From a virus, in IMG/VR virus record IMGVR_UViG_3300010158_000088, positions 1-54,659 of that record: 54,659 bases of DNA. One strand, given 5' to 3'. Shown one piece after another: positions 2,037-48,540 of this stretch; the stretch's first letter is position 1; each line of letters begins with the position of its first letter. The notes beneath the pieces are model-generated. The model was given only the letters and a program-made list of their open reading frames with translations. It was not told the DNA's origin and did no database searches. The translations under genes were made by a program, and so were the position numbers.

Positions 2037-2065
2037 ATTATAACACCTTTTTTAATGCTTGTCAA
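2037..2065 (-). promoter_or_regulatory. sigma70-type early promoter
   Basis: Minus strand TTGACA, 17-nt spacer ending AAAAAAGGTGT, TATAAT: perfect hexamers plus an extended -10. It overlaps the end of the proposed frameshift extension of the upstream gene. Confidence 0.82.
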
Positions 2066-2215
2066 ATGCTCTGTATTTATATTCTACTCGATATCTTGAA
2101 TCATACAAAGGTTCGGGTAAAGGGGCTCCTTGATCTGACCATTTTTCTTTTTCTTCTTCTACTGGTTTATCTTTGAACCAGGTCAGGATACGCTCAAAGA
2201 TTTTACTTTTTTTGC
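2052..2215 (-). other. candidate -1 ribosomal frameshift site and 51-codon extension
   Basis: The slippery run is A AAA AAA at 2213..2207, in the zero-frame register GCA AAA AAA GTA. The -1 frame stays open to a TAA at 2054..2052. It encodes a protein-like stretch beginning SKIFERILTWFKDKP and ending RVEYKYRAFDKH, with aromatic and charged residues unlike a random frame. I find no ATG, GTG or TTG in this frame after the slip site, so it needs either a frameshift from the DUF6433-like gene (158 + 51 residues) or a one-base sequencing error. No downstream pseudoknot was identified by eye. Confidence 0.5.
2074..2081 (-). promoter_or_regulatory. T4-type late promoter TATAAATA
   Basis: Exact TATAAATA on the minus strand, 61 nt upstream of the start at 2013. 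T4 late promoters consist of this -10 element alone. Confidence 0.6.
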
Positions 2216-2680: not shown

Positions 2681-3562
2681 TTAAAATTCCTCTATAACTT
2701 CTAGCATATTTTTCATTTTATGTTCAACAAAAAAATCTAGTAACTTGCTTTTATCTTTCGATGGGGTATCCTCATACCTATTTATGATAGAATTTTTAAT
2801 ATGATCAGGAATGCAACTAAAACTAACTAATTTTTTATTGCGTTCGTAATTTTTCTTAAATTCTGCATCTTGCGGCATAGCATCAAAATCCTTGTACCAA
2901 AGATCTAATTTTTCCTGACGTATTGGTTTTTGTCGTACACCATTCACAATACTATCGTCTGCTGATAGCACATTAGGAATACCGTCACCCTTGTCACCTT
3001 TAATGATATGTTCAAAAATATATTTCTCAGGGCTAATATCAGGTTTAACATACTTCCTTTGTATAGGGGAGAACTGTTTTACATTCTCATACTTTTGTAA
3101 TTGAATAAAGTCATGATCCCCGGATAATACTAGGAACGGCTTAGGTTCATCAAATAAAACACTCTTGGTATCATTAGTCTGAGACCATTCTGCGAGTACA
3201 GCAATGATATCATCTGCTTCTGCGCCTGCAACATTAATAACCTTGTATGGAAAGAACACTTCAATTTCACTACGAATAAGATTAATTGCCTCAAAGATTG
3301 TTTTCCAATCAAAGCCAGAATCTTCTCTTGCCTTTTTTCTTCCCGCTTTGTAATAAGGAAAATAATCTCTGCGCCAATAGTTTTGATTATCGCATGCGAT
3401 AACTATCTCGCCAAATTCTTTACCGAATTTTTGTTTATATCCTCGTATAGAATTTAAGATCATATGTCTCAATAGAGGCACTTGAATTTCAATATCATTA
3501 CGACCACCCACCTCAGCCATTAGATTAGAAATGGCTGTTTGATTAAAGTCAACTACTATCAT
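2681..3562 (-). CDS. rnh: RNase H, T4 Rnh-like 5'-3' exonuclease (FEN family)
   Basis: 293 aa (T4 RNase H is 305). It removes RNA primers and adjacent DNA 5' ends on the lagging strand. Visible acidic metal sites: D5 in VVDFN, E115/D117/D118 in GAEADD, D149/D151 in SGDHDF, then the H3TH-like KGDKGDGIPN near residue 192. The order and spacing fit the PIN-like nuclease fold. It shares one base with the upstream gene (TAATG) and is followed directly by the DUF6433-like gene. Confidence 0.9.
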   Translation of the reverse strand: MIVVDFNQTAISNLMAEVGGRNDIEIQVPLLRHMILNSIRGYKQKFGKEFGEIVIACDNQNYWRRDYFPYYKAGRKKAREDSGFDWKTIFEAINLIRSEIEVFFPYKVINVAGAEADDIIAVLAEWSQTNDTKSVLFDEPKPFLVLSGDHDFIQLQKYENVKQFSPIQRKYVKPDISPEKYIFEHIIKGDKGDGIPNVLSADDSIVNGVRQKPIRQEKLDLWYKDFDAMPQDAEFKKNYERNKKLVSFSCIPDHIKNSIINRYEDTPSKDKSKLLDFFVEHKMKNMLEVIEEF

Positions 3563-17166: not shown

Positions 17167-17306
17167 AGAAGATTATTTACCTGTAAGAATTTATATAGTT
17201 TTATATAATAGGAAAAGGATGCAGGATACACTTCGGGATCGGGTAATTTCTCACCCCAGCGTTCCTGCATTTTGGTATAAAAATCAATTATTTCTTGATC
17301 TGTCAT
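17163..17306 (-). CDS. hypothetical protein, 47 aa
   Basis: MTDQEIIDFYTKMQERWGEK, then YYIKLYKFLQ. Helical and aromatic. ATGA overlaps on both sides place it in an operon after the phosphoesterase. Unrecognised. Confidence 0.55.
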   Translation of the reverse strand: MTDQEIIDFYTKMQERWGEKLPDPEVYPASFSYYIKLYKFLQVNNLL

Positions 17307-18160
17307 ACATCAACATACTTTAAAGTAAATCTTTCAGCACGTTCTTCATAATTGTCATATCCTCTTGGATTGCATACAATACGAGTAGAACCAATCATAT
17401 AATCAAAATCCTCGTGTGTATGTCCGTGAGTCCACAACTTAATCTGAGGATGATCTAATATGAATGCAGATAGATCTGAACTATAGCCACCGTTCATTAT
17501 TTCTTCATCTTTGTATCGAGGATGAGTCGATAGTTTAGATGGTGCATGATGCCCGACAACTACAAACTTTTGATTAAATTTACCCTCAGTCATAATGCGA
17601 ATGTATTCCAACATTTCTCTGTGGTCAACAACTGCATCTTCTGGTGCAAAACGACTTTTACGTTTATGAAATTTACCATCCTCATCTTTAAAGATTGTTA
17701 CCCGATTACTATTTTGAACACAACGGAAGTCATTCATCATGCTTTTCATGTGAAGTAAGGTGATTGGATCTTCATTATTCATATCAGTCCACAAGGTGCC
17801 ACCGATGAATGTAGTGTCATCAATAACTTTAGTCTCCTTGTCTAGCAAATACACATTGCTTAACATATTAGAATCAAGCATTGATTGTAGTTTGTTTTTA
17901 GACTCACCAAAATCTCCGTTGTAATGCTCATGGTTACCCATGATAAAGATTACGTGTGGAAATTCGAATGAACAACGCTTAAAGAAATCTGTAATGCGAT
18001 TACTGCGAGAACCCTCAAGGAAATTGTGTGGATCAGGTTGACCGATATCGGCAGCAACACAGATATCACCGCCAAGAATTAATACATCGGCGTTGTCTGT
18101 GTTTTGTAAATTGATATCACCAAACTCGAGGTGAATATCTGAGCAAATTGCTACTCTCAT
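17303..18160 (-). CDS. calcineurin-like metallophosphoesterase, 285 aa
   Basis: Binuclear metal motifs in order: D8-x-H10 (CSDIHLE), D32 (LILGGDICV), GNHEHY at 75-80, VVGHHAPS near 201 and THGHTHEDFD near 244. Family members hydrolyse phosphomonoesters, diesters or nucleotides; phage members can act on DNA ends, RNA or nucleotide signals, so the substrate here is open. Near family length and apparently intact. Starts 3 bp after the membrane gene 18164..18469. Confidence 0.88.
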   Translation of the reverse strand: MRVAICSDIHLEFGDINLQNTDNADVLILGGDICVAADIGQPDPHNFLEGSRSNRITDFFKRCSFEFPHVIFIMGNHEHYNGDFGESKNKLQSMLDSNMLSNVYLLDKETKVIDDTTFIGGTLWTDMNNEDPITLLHMKSMMNDFRCVQNSNRVTIFKDEDGKFHKRKSRFAPEDAVVDHREMLEYIRIMTEGKFNQKFVVVGHHAPSKLSTHPRYKDEEIMNGGYSSDLSAFILDHPQIKLWTHGHTHEDFDYMIGSTRIVCNPRGYDNYEERAERFTLKYVDV

Positions 18161-27495: not shown

Positions 27496-28332
27496 TTAAT
27501 TCAAATCTTTGTTCTTGATGGAAAAGACCGAACCTTTGTCTATTTCTATTGAATTCCTCAAATTTCTAATTTTTGGTCTCCTTTTTTCGCTCTGTAGCAT
27601 AGAGTTTGCCCCTATTACTAATAGAATAGCTAACGGATCAAACACTATGATTATGAGTAAAATCATCCATGATACTGCTTTTTCCAATATACTTGTGTCC
27701 GTTGCCCCATACATAAATGCTGCAATATACTTTATAGGACCTACTTCGGCCTCGACCTTTCGTACTTCAGCTGCGATTGGCGCACGCTCCTCGCTAATGG
27801 CAGCAACAATTTTCTGTTCGGCTTGGATCTCAGACTGAAGCCTTGCACGTTCTTTCTGCTGGGCACGTCTAATAGTAACTGCCTTCTCCGCACCCGTTTC
27901 TGAACTGCTTCTTGCCATGACTTGGTCCACTGCCTCATCCATTTGTTTAAGAGCTTTACGGTTCGCATCAATATTATCCTTTGCTGCTTTAATCTTTTCG
28001 TCATATATGGATATTTTTGCCAGCACGTCACCTGACACTAAATTTTGATCGCTATGGGCTTTGGATAAGAATCCGAATATACCCATGGATGTTAGTAGGG
28101 ATAAAACTACAACACTGGTAATAAAATACGTTTTCATCAATGTGTTTATTTTGTTCCATTGTCTATATACGTAGGATGCTGTTACAAGTTTGCCCACTTC
28201 AAGAGCTGCGCCCATTATTAGAATAGGAGTTGGGCTAGCTGAAAAGATATAGGTCAATCCCATGATTGAAAAATATCCTGCTATACCTGAAATAGCTAAA
28301 GCTGTTCCCAATAATATAGCTGCAAAAATCAT
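27496..28332 (-). CDS. membrane protein with coiled coil, 278 aa
   Basis: N-terminal half has three or four membrane segments (residues 2-25, 32-53, 70-90), a soluble coiled-coil-like stretch about 105-195 (KISIYDEKIKAAKDNIDANR, AVTIRRAQQKERARLQSEIQ), a last membrane segment near 220-243 (MILLIIIVFDPLAILLVIGA), then a basic tail. Similar proteins occur in T4-like cyanophages and pelagiphages; function unknown. ATGA overlap with the upstream amidotransferase-like gene. Confidence 0.7.
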   Translation of the reverse strand: MIFAAILLGTALAISGIAGYFSIMGLTYIFSASPTPILIMGAALEVGKLVTASYVYRQWNKINTLMKTYFITSVVVLSLLTSMGIFGFLSKAHSDQNLVSGDVLAKISIYDEKIKAAKDNIDANRKALKQMDEAVDQVMARSSSETGAEKAVTIRRAQQKERARLQSEIQAEQKIVAAISEERAPIAAEVRKVEAEVGPIKYIAAFMYGATDTSILEKAVSWMILLIIIVFDPLAILLVIGANSMLQSEKRRPKIRNLRNSIEIDKGSVFSIKNKDLN

Positions 28333-28970
28333 TGAGCCATTAACCTATCTACAAAATTTAACAGTAAGGCGTGATGCTCACCGTTATGGTATTTTCCTTT
28401 TAGCCAACTGTAACTATCATACCAAAATTGTTCGCTTTCAGGATGGCAACCTATAAGTCCTATGTTCTTTTGAATAATCGCCATCGCATCACCGTTTGCA
28501 TAAGTAGCGATTGTTTTGTAGTTTCCATTACCAACCAGAGCACAACCATCGTAAAAAAACATCTTTGTGTCAATTCCATCCCAGTTGATTTCAATATTCT
28601 TAGCATGAGGTCTCCTTGTGTCAGTTTTTGGTTGCGTGATATATTGTACTGCATCCACTTTATTTAATATGTTAAGATAATGACTACCTGCCCAATAGGC
28701 ACCCATACAGATGCCTAGATATTTGCCGCCACGATTGACAAAATCAATAACACTAGTTTCGTTATGTTTGAATAAATTTTTGTAACTATTGCTATCCCCA
28801 ATGCCGCCAGGAACAGCTATCATATCTACATCGTCAAAGAAATTATTTTCTAGTTTATTTTTGGAAAATAGTTTAAAACTATACTTATTCCCTAACGATT
28901 TCATAATACCATTGCCACTCTGCACTGAGCATTTTGGGTCATGGATAAATAATGCTATAGTTTTTTGCAT
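28329..28970 (-). CDS. class I glutamine-amidotransferase-like protein (BPL_N-type)
   Basis: 213 aa. AVPGGIGDSNSYKNLF near 52-67, nucleophile elbow LGICMGAYWAG with C88, and GCHPESEQFW with H176 and E178, giving a Cys-His-Glu triad. This agrees best with the BPL_N family (biotin-protein-ligase N-terminal-like domains). Such proteins are hydrolases or transferases of unknown substrate; no ligase domain is fused here. It lies at the edge of the adhesin array, so it could act on cell-surface or small-molecule substrates, which is a guess. Confidence 0.75.
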   Translation of the reverse strand: MQKTIALFIHDPKCSVQSGNGIMKSLGNKYSFKLFSKNKLENNFFDDVDMIAVPGGIGDSNSYKNLFKHNETSVIDFVNRGGKYLGICMGAYWAGSHYLNILNKVDAVQYITQPKTDTRRPHAKNIEINWDGIDTKMFFYDGCALVGNGNYKTIATYANGDAMAIIQKNIGLIGCHPESEQFWYDSYSWLKGKYHNGEHHALLLNFVDRLMAQ

Positions 28971-37295: not shown

Positions 37296-37735
37296 GTGTC
37301 GATTCCTCTCTTCTTTGCTTCAGTTTCAAATACTCTTGTTCTTAGATCTGATGAACTAAAGTAATGATCTCGCTTGTTAAAATAAATGTCAATTTTTCTT
37401 TTCTCACAGATAACTTTGCCTGTGTACTCAGTATCTCTATACTCTTCACCCAAGATACGAACATCAATAGGTAAAGACATAAAGATATCTTCAAGTTCTT
37501 TTTCTGTAGAATATACAATAATCTCATCGACGTGTTTACAAGCTGCAACTTGTATTTGTCGTTCGATTATGGATTGTACGGGTTTGTTTTTACTTAACCT
37601 GTCGATTGTTGGGTCGACTTGGATTGCTGCGATTAAATGATCGCATTGTCTTTTTGCCTCTTCAAGCATGATAACATGACCAGCATGAAAGAGATCAAAA
37701 GTACTGCAAGTAATTCCTATAATTTTATTACTCAT
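37241..37735 (-). CDS. cytidylyltransferase-like nucleotidyltransferase, 164 aa
   Basis: GITCSTFDLFHAGHVIMLEE with HAGH at 17-20, IDRLSKNKPVQSIIERQ, RILGEEYRDTEYTGK near 93, and HYFSSSDLR near 124-132 is the glycerol-3-phosphate cytidylyltransferase plan. Such enzymes make CDP-activated polyols or sugars; here it may work with the fusion at 848..1621. ATGA overlap with the dCMP deaminase. Confidence 0.8.
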   Translation of the reverse strand: MSNKIIGITCSTFDLFHAGHVIMLEEAKRQCDHLIAAIQVDPTIDRLSKNKPVQSIIERQIQVAACKHVDEIIVYSTEKELEDIFMSLPIDVRILGEEYRDTEYTGKVICEKRKIDIYFNKRDHYFSSSDLRTRVFETEAKKRGIDTWQKINTTSASNVMPSSR

Positions 37736-38199
37736 ATTTGCTCCACTTCAATTTTACATTGATTTAAAAATTCTATACCATTAGTATTTCTATAAGGGGT
37801 ACGATAGAATACTTTATTTATACCTGCCACATGAATCATTTTACTACATTCAAAACAAGGTGCATGGGTAATATACATTGTAGCGCCCTCGCCTGATTCT
37901 GTCGAACGAGCTAATTTACCTATAGCATTTGACTCAGCATGAATTACCTCAGCTTTAGTCTTTAATGTATAGTTTGCACCTTCGTATTCTTCGATGGATT
38001 GACCGACACCATAAGTAAAAGTTTCTCGTATTACATCTTCACAGTTGTTATCCCATCCCGCAGGAGTACCATTATAACCTATAGATATAACCCTATCATC
38101 TTTAGTTATAATAGCACCAACCTTTAATCTTCTCGCATAAGATAGATCTGCATATGCCTCCGCAGCCGTCATATGTGCATAATCAATTTTCTTCGGCAT
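37732..38199 (-). CDS. dCMP deaminase
   Basis: 155 aa. Zinc ligands H87 (HAESNAI, with catalytic E89), C115 and C118 (PCFEC), plus the GAIITKDDRVISIGYNG nucleotide-binding strand. Converts dCMP to dUMP, the substrate of thymidylate synthase; ThyX is encoded at 44230..44904, so this and RNR form a dTMP supply chain. Length near T4 CD (193 aa, which has a longer C-terminus). A TATAAATA lies inside it at 37815-37822, facing the next gene. Confidence 0.88.
   Translation of the reverse strand: MPKKIDYAHMTAAEAYADLSYARRLKVGAIITKDDRVISIGYNGTPAGWDNNCEDVIRETFTYGVGQSIEEYEGANYTLKTKAEVIHAESNAIGKLARSTESGEGATMYITHAPCFECSKMIHVAGINKVFYRTPYRNTNGIEFLNQCKIEVEQI
37815..37822 (-). promoter_or_regulatory. internal TATAAATA motif
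   Basis: Exact late-type motif on the minus strand inside the deaminase gene, 80 nt before the cytidylyltransferase start. May be a late promoter or chance. Confidence 0.3.
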
Positions 38200-38365: not shown

Positions 38366-38553
38366 TTTTTACACCAATAATTAGGTTTCACCTTAGCATC
38401 CCAGGTTTTACAATATTTTGTTCCTGGTACATATGCCCCACAATTTGCGCAATTTTCTTTACTATTACCTAAAGCATATGCAGGAGGTAATTTTTTATTA
38501 ATTAAAGTACCATCAGGATACTTTCTTTCTCTTATCTCATCAAAATTTTTCAT
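38335..38553 (-). CDS. small cysteine-containing protein, 72 aa
   Basis: Start at 38553 forms an ATGA overlap with the nrdB stop, so it is preferred over 38568. SKENCANCGAYVPGTKYCKTW then NYWCKKWIP gives four Cys spaced like a small iron-sulfur or zinc knuckle. Conserved next to nrdB in some T4-like phages as I recall. Function unknown; a redox or metal role is plausible. Confidence 0.65.
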   Translation of the reverse strand: MKNFDEIRERKYPDGTLINKKLPPAYALGNSKENCANCGAYVPGTKYCKTWDAKVKPNYWCKKWIPIKKQTT

Positions 38554-39533
38554 GCAGCCTTTCCCCACACATCATGCCAGTTTCCTGACAAGGCACCTTT
38601 TGCGTAGTCTGTTGCTCTGTTTTCAAAGAAATTAGTATGCGTTGGAGCATTGATCATTTCTTCAACCCATGGTAAAGGATTCTTTTTACGCTTAAAGATG
38701 CCTTTTAGTCCAAGACTAATTAGACGTCTGTCAGCAATGTAACGAATATATTCCTTTACGTCGTTCTCTGTTAACCCTTCGATAGCGCCAGATTTGAAAG
38801 ACAGTTCAATAAACTTATCTTCAAGACTAACCATCTTCTCCGCAATCGAGTAGATCTTTTCTTTGAGAGTATCATTCCATATCTCCTTATTTTCTTCGAT
38901 GTAGTTACGGAATAATTTAATCATGCCCTCGGCGTGTTGTGTTTCATCAACAATAGACCAAGTAACAATTTGTCCCATACCGCGCATCTTACCCATACGA
39001 GGGAAGTTAAGTAACATAATAAAGGAACTGAATAGTTGCATACCTTCAGTAAATGCGCTGAACACCGCAATATGTTCTGCGGTTGAAGCAATCGTACCAT
39101 TCTTAGATGAAATATCAAGAACAAAGTCATGCTTATCTTTCATTTCTTGATATTCTAGAAATTGATTGTAAGTTGTTTCTGGTAATCCTAGTGTCTCAAT
39201 TAAATGAGAATATGCCGCAATATGTAATGCCTCACGGGCTGCAAAACCCATAAGCATCATTCTTATTTCAGGTTGCGGAAAGTAAGGTAGATAATTTTTG
39301 ACATATCCACCAGCGACATCAATATCTCCCTGAGTAAAGAATCGGAAGATGTGCGTAAGGAATTGTTTTTCTTCATTTGATAATTTCTTTTTCCAATCTT
39401 TAACATCCTCATGCATGGGTACTTCGGTATGTAACCAATGGCTTTGTTCATGTTTTAACCATGCATCATATGCCCAGGGGTAATTAAAGGGTTTAAACGA
39501 ATTTCTATCATCCGTCATTTTTGTCTTTTTCAT
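38550..39533 (-). CDS. nrdB: ribonucleotide reductase class I beta subunit
   Basis: 327 aa. Di-metal ligands D70 (TQGDID), E101 and H104 (REALH), E163 (FTEGM), E197 and H200 (VDETQH), and the radical tyrosine Y108 (HIAAYSH) are all present. It makes the tyrosyl radical that NrdA uses to reduce NDPs. nrdB here is separated from nrdA by the Fe-S gene group. A smaller, cyanophage-like form; class Ia-type spacing with a Tyr, not a Phe, at the radical site. Confidence 0.92.
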   Translation of the reverse strand: MKKTKMTDDRNSFKPFNYPWAYDAWLKHEQSHWLHTEVPMHEDVKDWKKKLSNEEKQFLTHIFRFFTQGDIDVAGGYVKNYLPYFPQPEIRMMLMGFAAREALHIAAYSHLIETLGLPETTYNQFLEYQEMKDKHDFVLDISSKNGTIASTAEHIAVFSAFTEGMQLFSSFIMLLNFPRMGKMRGMGQIVTWSIVDETQHAEGMIKLFRNYIEENKEIWNDTLKEKIYSIAEKMVSLEDKFIELSFKSGAIEGLTENDVKEYIRYIADRRLISLGLKGIFKRKKNPLPWVEEMINAPTHTNFFENRATDYAKGALSGNWHDVWGKAA

Positions 39534-48151: not shown

Positions 48152-48540
48152 TAAATCCTCTTTAAATCTTCTAGTATTGATTCATCTATAGGAATGTCTT
48201 TATCTAAGATCTCTATTCCAGGAGACACTATTATCTTTAATGGCATATAGTTTAAAAACACAAGAAATGTTTTTACCTGAGGCCAAAATTTTTTCTCTAA
48301 TTTATAAAACAACATCTTTGTTGTTGCTTCAACACCAAATAAATTACCAAGAACAATTATATGATTTAATATCAATCGTTCTTTTAATTCTTTACCTACA
48401 TTATGTTTTCTTAACAATCGCTTAATGTACTTAAATCTTTTCAAATCATCCAAAAATTCATCCATCCCAATGCAAGAAGGATTATCATAATTTTTAATGG
48501 CATACATCATAAAATTGTCTTCAGTCAATTCATTTATCAT
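48151..48540 (-). CDS. conserved T4-like phage protein, 129 aa
   Basis: MINELTEDNFMMYAIKNYDN, RFKYIKRLLRKHNVGKELKE, RLILNHIIVLGNLFGVEATT, KTFLVFLNYMPLKII: helical, near a T4-like cyanophage family (DUF7207-like pattern by memory). Function unknown. Followed by the 185-aa gene. Confidence 0.65.
   Translation of the reverse strand: MINELTEDNFMMYAIKNYDNPSCIGMDEFLDDLKRFKYIKRLLRKHNVGKELKERLILNHIIVLGNLFGVEATTKMLFYKLEKKFWPQVKTFLVFLNYMPLKIIVSPGIEILDKDIPIDESILEDLKRI

Follow-up and report, generated by a model that had tools for sequence, protein, structure and literature searches.

A putative dnaX-type programmed -1 ribosomal frameshift in a phage DUF6433 gene

The best-known frameshifts of tailed phages are found in tail and head genes. 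In lambda G/GT and other tail-assembly chaperones, a -1 shift near the 3' end of a gene adds a C-terminal extension to its product. The chaperones of T4-like phages reportedly use a mechanism other than frameshifting, going by the title of a 2022 paper by Vladimirov that PMC10885494 cites. The frameshift cassette of Escherichia coli dnaX (tau/gamma) includes an upstream Shine-Dalgarno (SD) sequence. Its slippery sequence is AAAAAAG, followed by a 5-nt spacer and an 11-bp hairpin, and its efficiency is 50-80% (PMC8861025). Here we describe a phage gene for a DUF6433 protein in which sequence comparison makes a programmed -1 ribosomal frameshift cassette of the dnaX type very probable. The gene is unrelated to dnaX, and the shift would lengthen the DUF6433 protein, whereas in E. 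coli it shortens the dnaX product.

The stretch of DNA analyzed (the window) is an IMG/VR viral record of 54,659 bases, and the window coordinates given below are all on its minus strand. The DUF6433 gene (2183-2680) is a zero-frame open reading frame (ORF) of 165 codons, encoding a core and a K/A/E-rich linker. Its assignment as DUF6433-like in a first-pass annotation is borne out by a match to PF20025 (E=2.9e-30, 105.1 bits, gathering cut-off 38.9), and it also matches phrog_461 (E=9e-41). The ATG is immediately preceded by the stop codon of the upstream neighbor, a T4-type RNase H (flap nuclease; 2681-3562; Pfam RNaseH_C 3.7e-15, 5_3_exonuc_N 1.6e-13). The zero frame ends ...ACA AAA GCA AAA AAA GTA AAA TCT TTG AGC GTA TCC TGA. 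A heptamer, A AAA AAA (2207-2213), thus lies in the zero frame, seven sense codons before the TGA stop (2183-2185). In the -1 frame, 51 codons (SKIFERILTWFKDK...YRAFDKH; 2055-2207) extend past the two lysines of the heptamer to a TAA stop (2052-2054), the first tail codon, AGT, reusing base 2207. Inspection of the sequence confirmed both the position of the heptamer and the length of the -1 frame as first annotated. The predicted fusion is 209 residues long and the unshifted form 165. The annotation had also described the -1 frame as free of start codons. This holds for ATG and GTG, which are absent; there is a single TTG (PEP-L-YD), but it comes far too late for the conserved tail to start from it. 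Between the tail and the next gene is an AT-rich gap (2014-2051; TTATAATATAATTATATTATTGGAG) with the look of a promoter and ribosome-binding site. Further along, 848-1621 encodes a 257-aa protein that combines a cytidylyltransferase-like domain with a mannose-6-phosphate-isomerase-type cupin.

The length of the -1 frame proves nothing by itself, because such overruns are common in the window: of the 49 long ORFs on this strand, 21 continue in the -1 frame for at least 43 codons past the stop. An X XXY YYZ motif near the stop together with a long -1 overrun also occurs at 28332-28970, 37735-38199, 48154-48540, 38553-39533 and 17306-18160; several of these overruns probably just run into the next gene. 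The heptamer is rare, with two in-frame A AAA AAR in 13,161 codons of the window.

Relatives were collected by IMG/VR scans, to which named phages were added. The contig scans used single tail sequences, and a first tail alignment was too diverse. A scan of genome contigs turned up no relative. The tail is present at 79 of 101 sequence-distinct DUF6433 loci, and in all 79 distinct sequences it lies in the -1 frame, never in frame or in +1. An in-frame A AAA AAR stands ahead of it in 73 of the 79; at other Lys-Lys sites on the same contigs the motif has a background share of 7.6%. At 14 of the 73 heptamer sites the -1 frame is open only from 3 nt or less before the heptamer, so that entry from further upstream is impossible there. 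The comparison that the first-pass annotation had proposed thus shows A-run and -1 frame to be conserved in diverged relatives, and by these counts the co-conservation of heptamer and tail is far beyond chance. The same annotation had looked to relatives that might encode the tail in frame. None was found; in five the tail is instead an ORF of its own, whose ATG overlaps the stop. Some sequencing technologies are prone to errors in homopolymer runs, which raises the question of a sequencing or assembly error, or of a decaying pseudogene tail. The same frame relation recurs in dozens of independent metagenome contigs with runs of varied composition, A6G variants included, and this excludes an assembly error.

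The tail also changes as a coding sequence does. Downstream of the zero-frame stop, the -1 frame has a pN/pS of 0.45, compared with 0.92 for the zero frame and 1.28 for the +1 frame. Stops interrupt the zero frame in 48 of 65 sequences and the +1 frame in all 65; the -1 frame has none. By these measures the tail is evolving as a protein, under purifying selection in the -1 frame. The decay that was named beforehand as a sign against frameshifting was looked for in this same set (frame open in 65/65, pN/pS 0.45) and is absent. We regard error or pseudogene decay as effectively refuted and assign it next to no probability.

The heptamer is flanked on both sides by candidate stimulators. An SD-like element, AGAGGCGG (2224-2231), lies 10 nt upstream, where the best upstream anti-SD energy in the window is -6.5 kcal/mol (the sequence is identical to that of relative L132). 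Across 62 sites, pairing with the anti-SD of 16S rRNA is strongest for 8-mers whose last base lies 7-10 nt upstream of the heptamer, with a mean energy of about -4.2 kcal/mol at this peak and about -0.8 at more distant upstream positions. Within the stimulator zone, the best value is on average -4.5 as observed and -1.8 after codon shuffling. The element is weak in about a dozen sites (the L138/L180/L195 group).

Downstream, a 5-nt spacer (2202-2206) leads into a 10-bp stem-loop, AUCUUUGAGC-(13 nt)-GUUCAAAGAU (2169-2201), with the zero-frame UGA in its loop. The window hairpin has a predicted energy of -11.1 kcal/mol; its z-score is -2.20 relative to dinucleotide shuffles and -2.70 relative to synonymous recoding. 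Stem pairs were counted by script after group-wise re-alignment, MAFFT having misplaced a one-base bulge. Standard pairs fill 215 of 252 pair cells in 21 distinct stems, compared with 70-135 when the partner strand is slid. RNAalifold run on subgroups found compensatory pairs in which both sides have changed. Synonymous recodings of the tail give, on average, a less stable hairpin than the native sequence in 27 of 29 clusters (mean z -1.86), so that the hairpin is not merely a by-product of the protein sequence. Significance is missing in some clusters (L150, L153).

These flanking elements bear on a second rival, transcriptional slippage on the A7 run, by which a mixed mRNA population would supply the -1 frame. 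It fits the 46 of 73 sites that have only the A7 form. It does not fit the other 27, which have A6G, or L208, where a C CCU UUG sequence leaves no A-run at the entry point; moreover, a hairpin and a positioned SD-like element act on ribosomes, not on RNA polymerase. We consider this route very improbable.

In architecture the cassette resembles that of dnaX: A AAA AAR, an SD-like element about 10 nt upstream, a 5-nt spacer and a replication-associated protein. The stems are of 10 bp in the window and 11 bp in dnaX, and the hairpin sequences are unrelated. Of the 20 bases that precede the heptamer in the window, 15 match dnaX, and relative L107 shares with MG1655 dnaX 22 consecutive identical nucleotides, AGGGAGCAACCAAAGCAAAAAA, in the same reading frame. 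We read this likeness as apparent convergence.

A third rival keeps the tail but dispenses with the shift. The tail could be a separate small gene, expressed by stop-coupled re-initiation at a non-AUG codon (CTG or TTG overlapping TGA). An ATG does overlap the stop in five relatives (L079, L120, L122, L123, L125), and in many others the TGA overlaps a CTG or TTG of the -1 frame. Several observations speak against re-initiation as the general route. Thirteen of 71 complete -1 ORFs lack any ATG, GTG or TTG, and the conserved tail residues FER precede the overlap. In L065, L097 and L143, where the zero-frame stop comes 67-76 nt past the heptamer, both the heptamer and the tail persist; this argues against stop coupling, which here would need a backward jump over 20 codons. 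Re-initiation also leaves the heptamer, the SD peak and the hairpin unexplained. Overall we judge re-initiation improbable, and programmed -1 frameshifting remains our reading.

Six of the 79 tail-bearing sequences lack A AAA AAR. In the five relatives with the overlapping ATG there is no heptamer, and TAATG or TGATG puts the tail ATG on the stop codon. In the sixth, L208, C CCU UUG stands about 13 nt after GGGAGG, and -1 stops lie just upstream. All six, then, offer some other plausible way of reaching the tail in place of the usual signal. With the tail made from an ATG in five of them, covalent fusion is not a strict requirement. Another clade (L153, 911-1063; L160, 3462-3611; L150, 3462-3611) also has the heptamer, followed by a -1 tail. 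The C-terminal half of this tail is different, with DIPKYEDYYTFKVHKE replacing YRAFDK, and the tail end may be subject to exchange.

As in the lambda G/GT pair, a short protein would be extended at its C terminus by a -1 frameshift, and DUF6433 plus tail could in principle be a tail-assembly chaperone pair of that type. DUF6433 is, however, a different protein from G/GT, with another fold and another place in the genome. Its neighbors are replication genes, RNase H and DNA ligase, not the tail-tube and tape-measure genes of a tail module, and its fold matches a ligase DNA-binding domain. The chances of a chaperone pair are accordingly very slim. AlphaFold2 models DUF6433 with high confidence (pLDDT 86.9), and among solved structures Foldseek places T4 DNA ligase and the DNA-binding domain of that enzyme first (5wfy, the T4 ligase DNA-binding domain: probability 1.00, TM 0.61/0.74, E 8e-3). 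When DUF6433 was compared by hhalign, on a shallow profile, with the N-terminal domain of the ligase that the phage itself encodes, the probability was 92.8 and E 3.8e-7. We infer from the model that the DUF6433 core (residues about 1-140) is a stand-alone, all-helical DNA-ligase DNA-binding domain. It would share the fold of the T4 ligase (gp30) domain; unlike gp30 it has no catalytic domain, and a full-length ligase is encoded by the phage as well. With RNase H and ligase as its neighbors, the DUF6433 body may work near nicks or flaps, in Okazaki-fragment or repair steps.

The start of the ATP-dependent DNA ligase gene (2-142) is truncated by the window edge. This ORF, MSAIYTVIEQLALDNSRLAKE..., matches the ligase N terminus in L213, and the ligase is full-length (442 aa) in a 222-kb relative. 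The N-terminal domain of the edge-cut gene is homologous to the DUF6433 of the same gene cluster. In each of the five large tail-bearing contigs searched, DUF6433 has a full ligase gene about 3 kb away. S-PM2 and HTVC008M, the two marine phages searched, gave no ligase-domain match and no tail, and a review reports no ligase homologue in marine cyanomyoviruses (PMC2984593). In this small sample the tail thus co-occurs with a phage ligase. The DUF6433 proteins of marine cyanophages, pelagiphages and Melnitz (T4-GC 313) have a homologous core, and several follow RNase H. They differ in having no linker, heptamer or tail; they end in ...WGGRS or similar, and an unrelated gene comes next. In marine cyanophages DUF6433 is followed by T4-GC 314, which on comparison by eye does not resemble the tail. 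The phages with a tailed DUF6433 are T4-like, and from their source lakes and the contig numbers we read them as freshwater phages.

The most conserved residues of the tail are W25, R40 and the C-terminal YRAFD. Searched by tblastn among named phages, the tail had no credible match, and the tail alignment gave nothing convincing against Pfam, PHROGs or PDB. The AlphaFold2 model of the tail is poor (pLDDT 65, pTM 0.18). FERILTWF, in the first part of the tail, has the hydrophobic spacing of the phage polymerase C terminus, QATLEGLF. In RB69 the polymerase C terminus is a known clamp-binding position (PMC3012046). The FERILTWF helix or motif is mostly absent in the ATG clade, which retains the W...YRAFDK part. 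With low confidence, we propose that the tail might attach a fraction of DUF6433 to a partner, possibly the sliding clamp; a role as replisome or clamp tether is a guess. Clamp tethering is only a suggestion because its sole basis is the motif spacing and the motif is mostly missing in the ATG clade.

Together, the heptamer, the SD-like element, the co-varying hairpin and selection in the -1 frame strongly support programmed -1 frameshifting. Every comparative test proposed at the outset came out in favor of this reading at the sequence level, and as the tests share ancestry they are not independent and are not to be multiplied together. In the proposed mechanism, a ribosome on A AAA AAA would have the SD-like sequence paired behind it and the hairpin ahead. 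A fraction of ribosomes would slip back one base into the -1 frame, giving the 209-aa form with its 51-residue tail; the remainder would stop seven codons later, giving the 165-aa form. Slippage itself, its efficiency and the use of both proteins are what we infer from these signals. More tentatively, and on balance doubtfully, Okazaki-fragment processing in the phage could be tuned by two forms of a ligase-type DNA-binding protein, one of them with a replisome- or clamp-tethering tail, under a dnaX-like signal that evolved independently and converged even on the sequence of dnaX.

A literature search found no paper that mentions DUF6433, nothing that joins 'programmed frameshift' with 'cyanophage', and no published report of this frameshift. 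The mechanism is already known; what is new to us is the gene, its ligase-type identity and the other routes seen in relatives. The DUF6433 case would place a frameshift in a gene associated with replication, in a freshwater T4-like group that is widespread. Gene annotation would be corrected in many genomes, and DUF6433 would gain an identity. The relatives would form a natural set of more than 70 dnaX-like cassettes with two alternative solutions, the overlapping ATG and C CCU UUG, useful for studying how such signals arise and get replaced.
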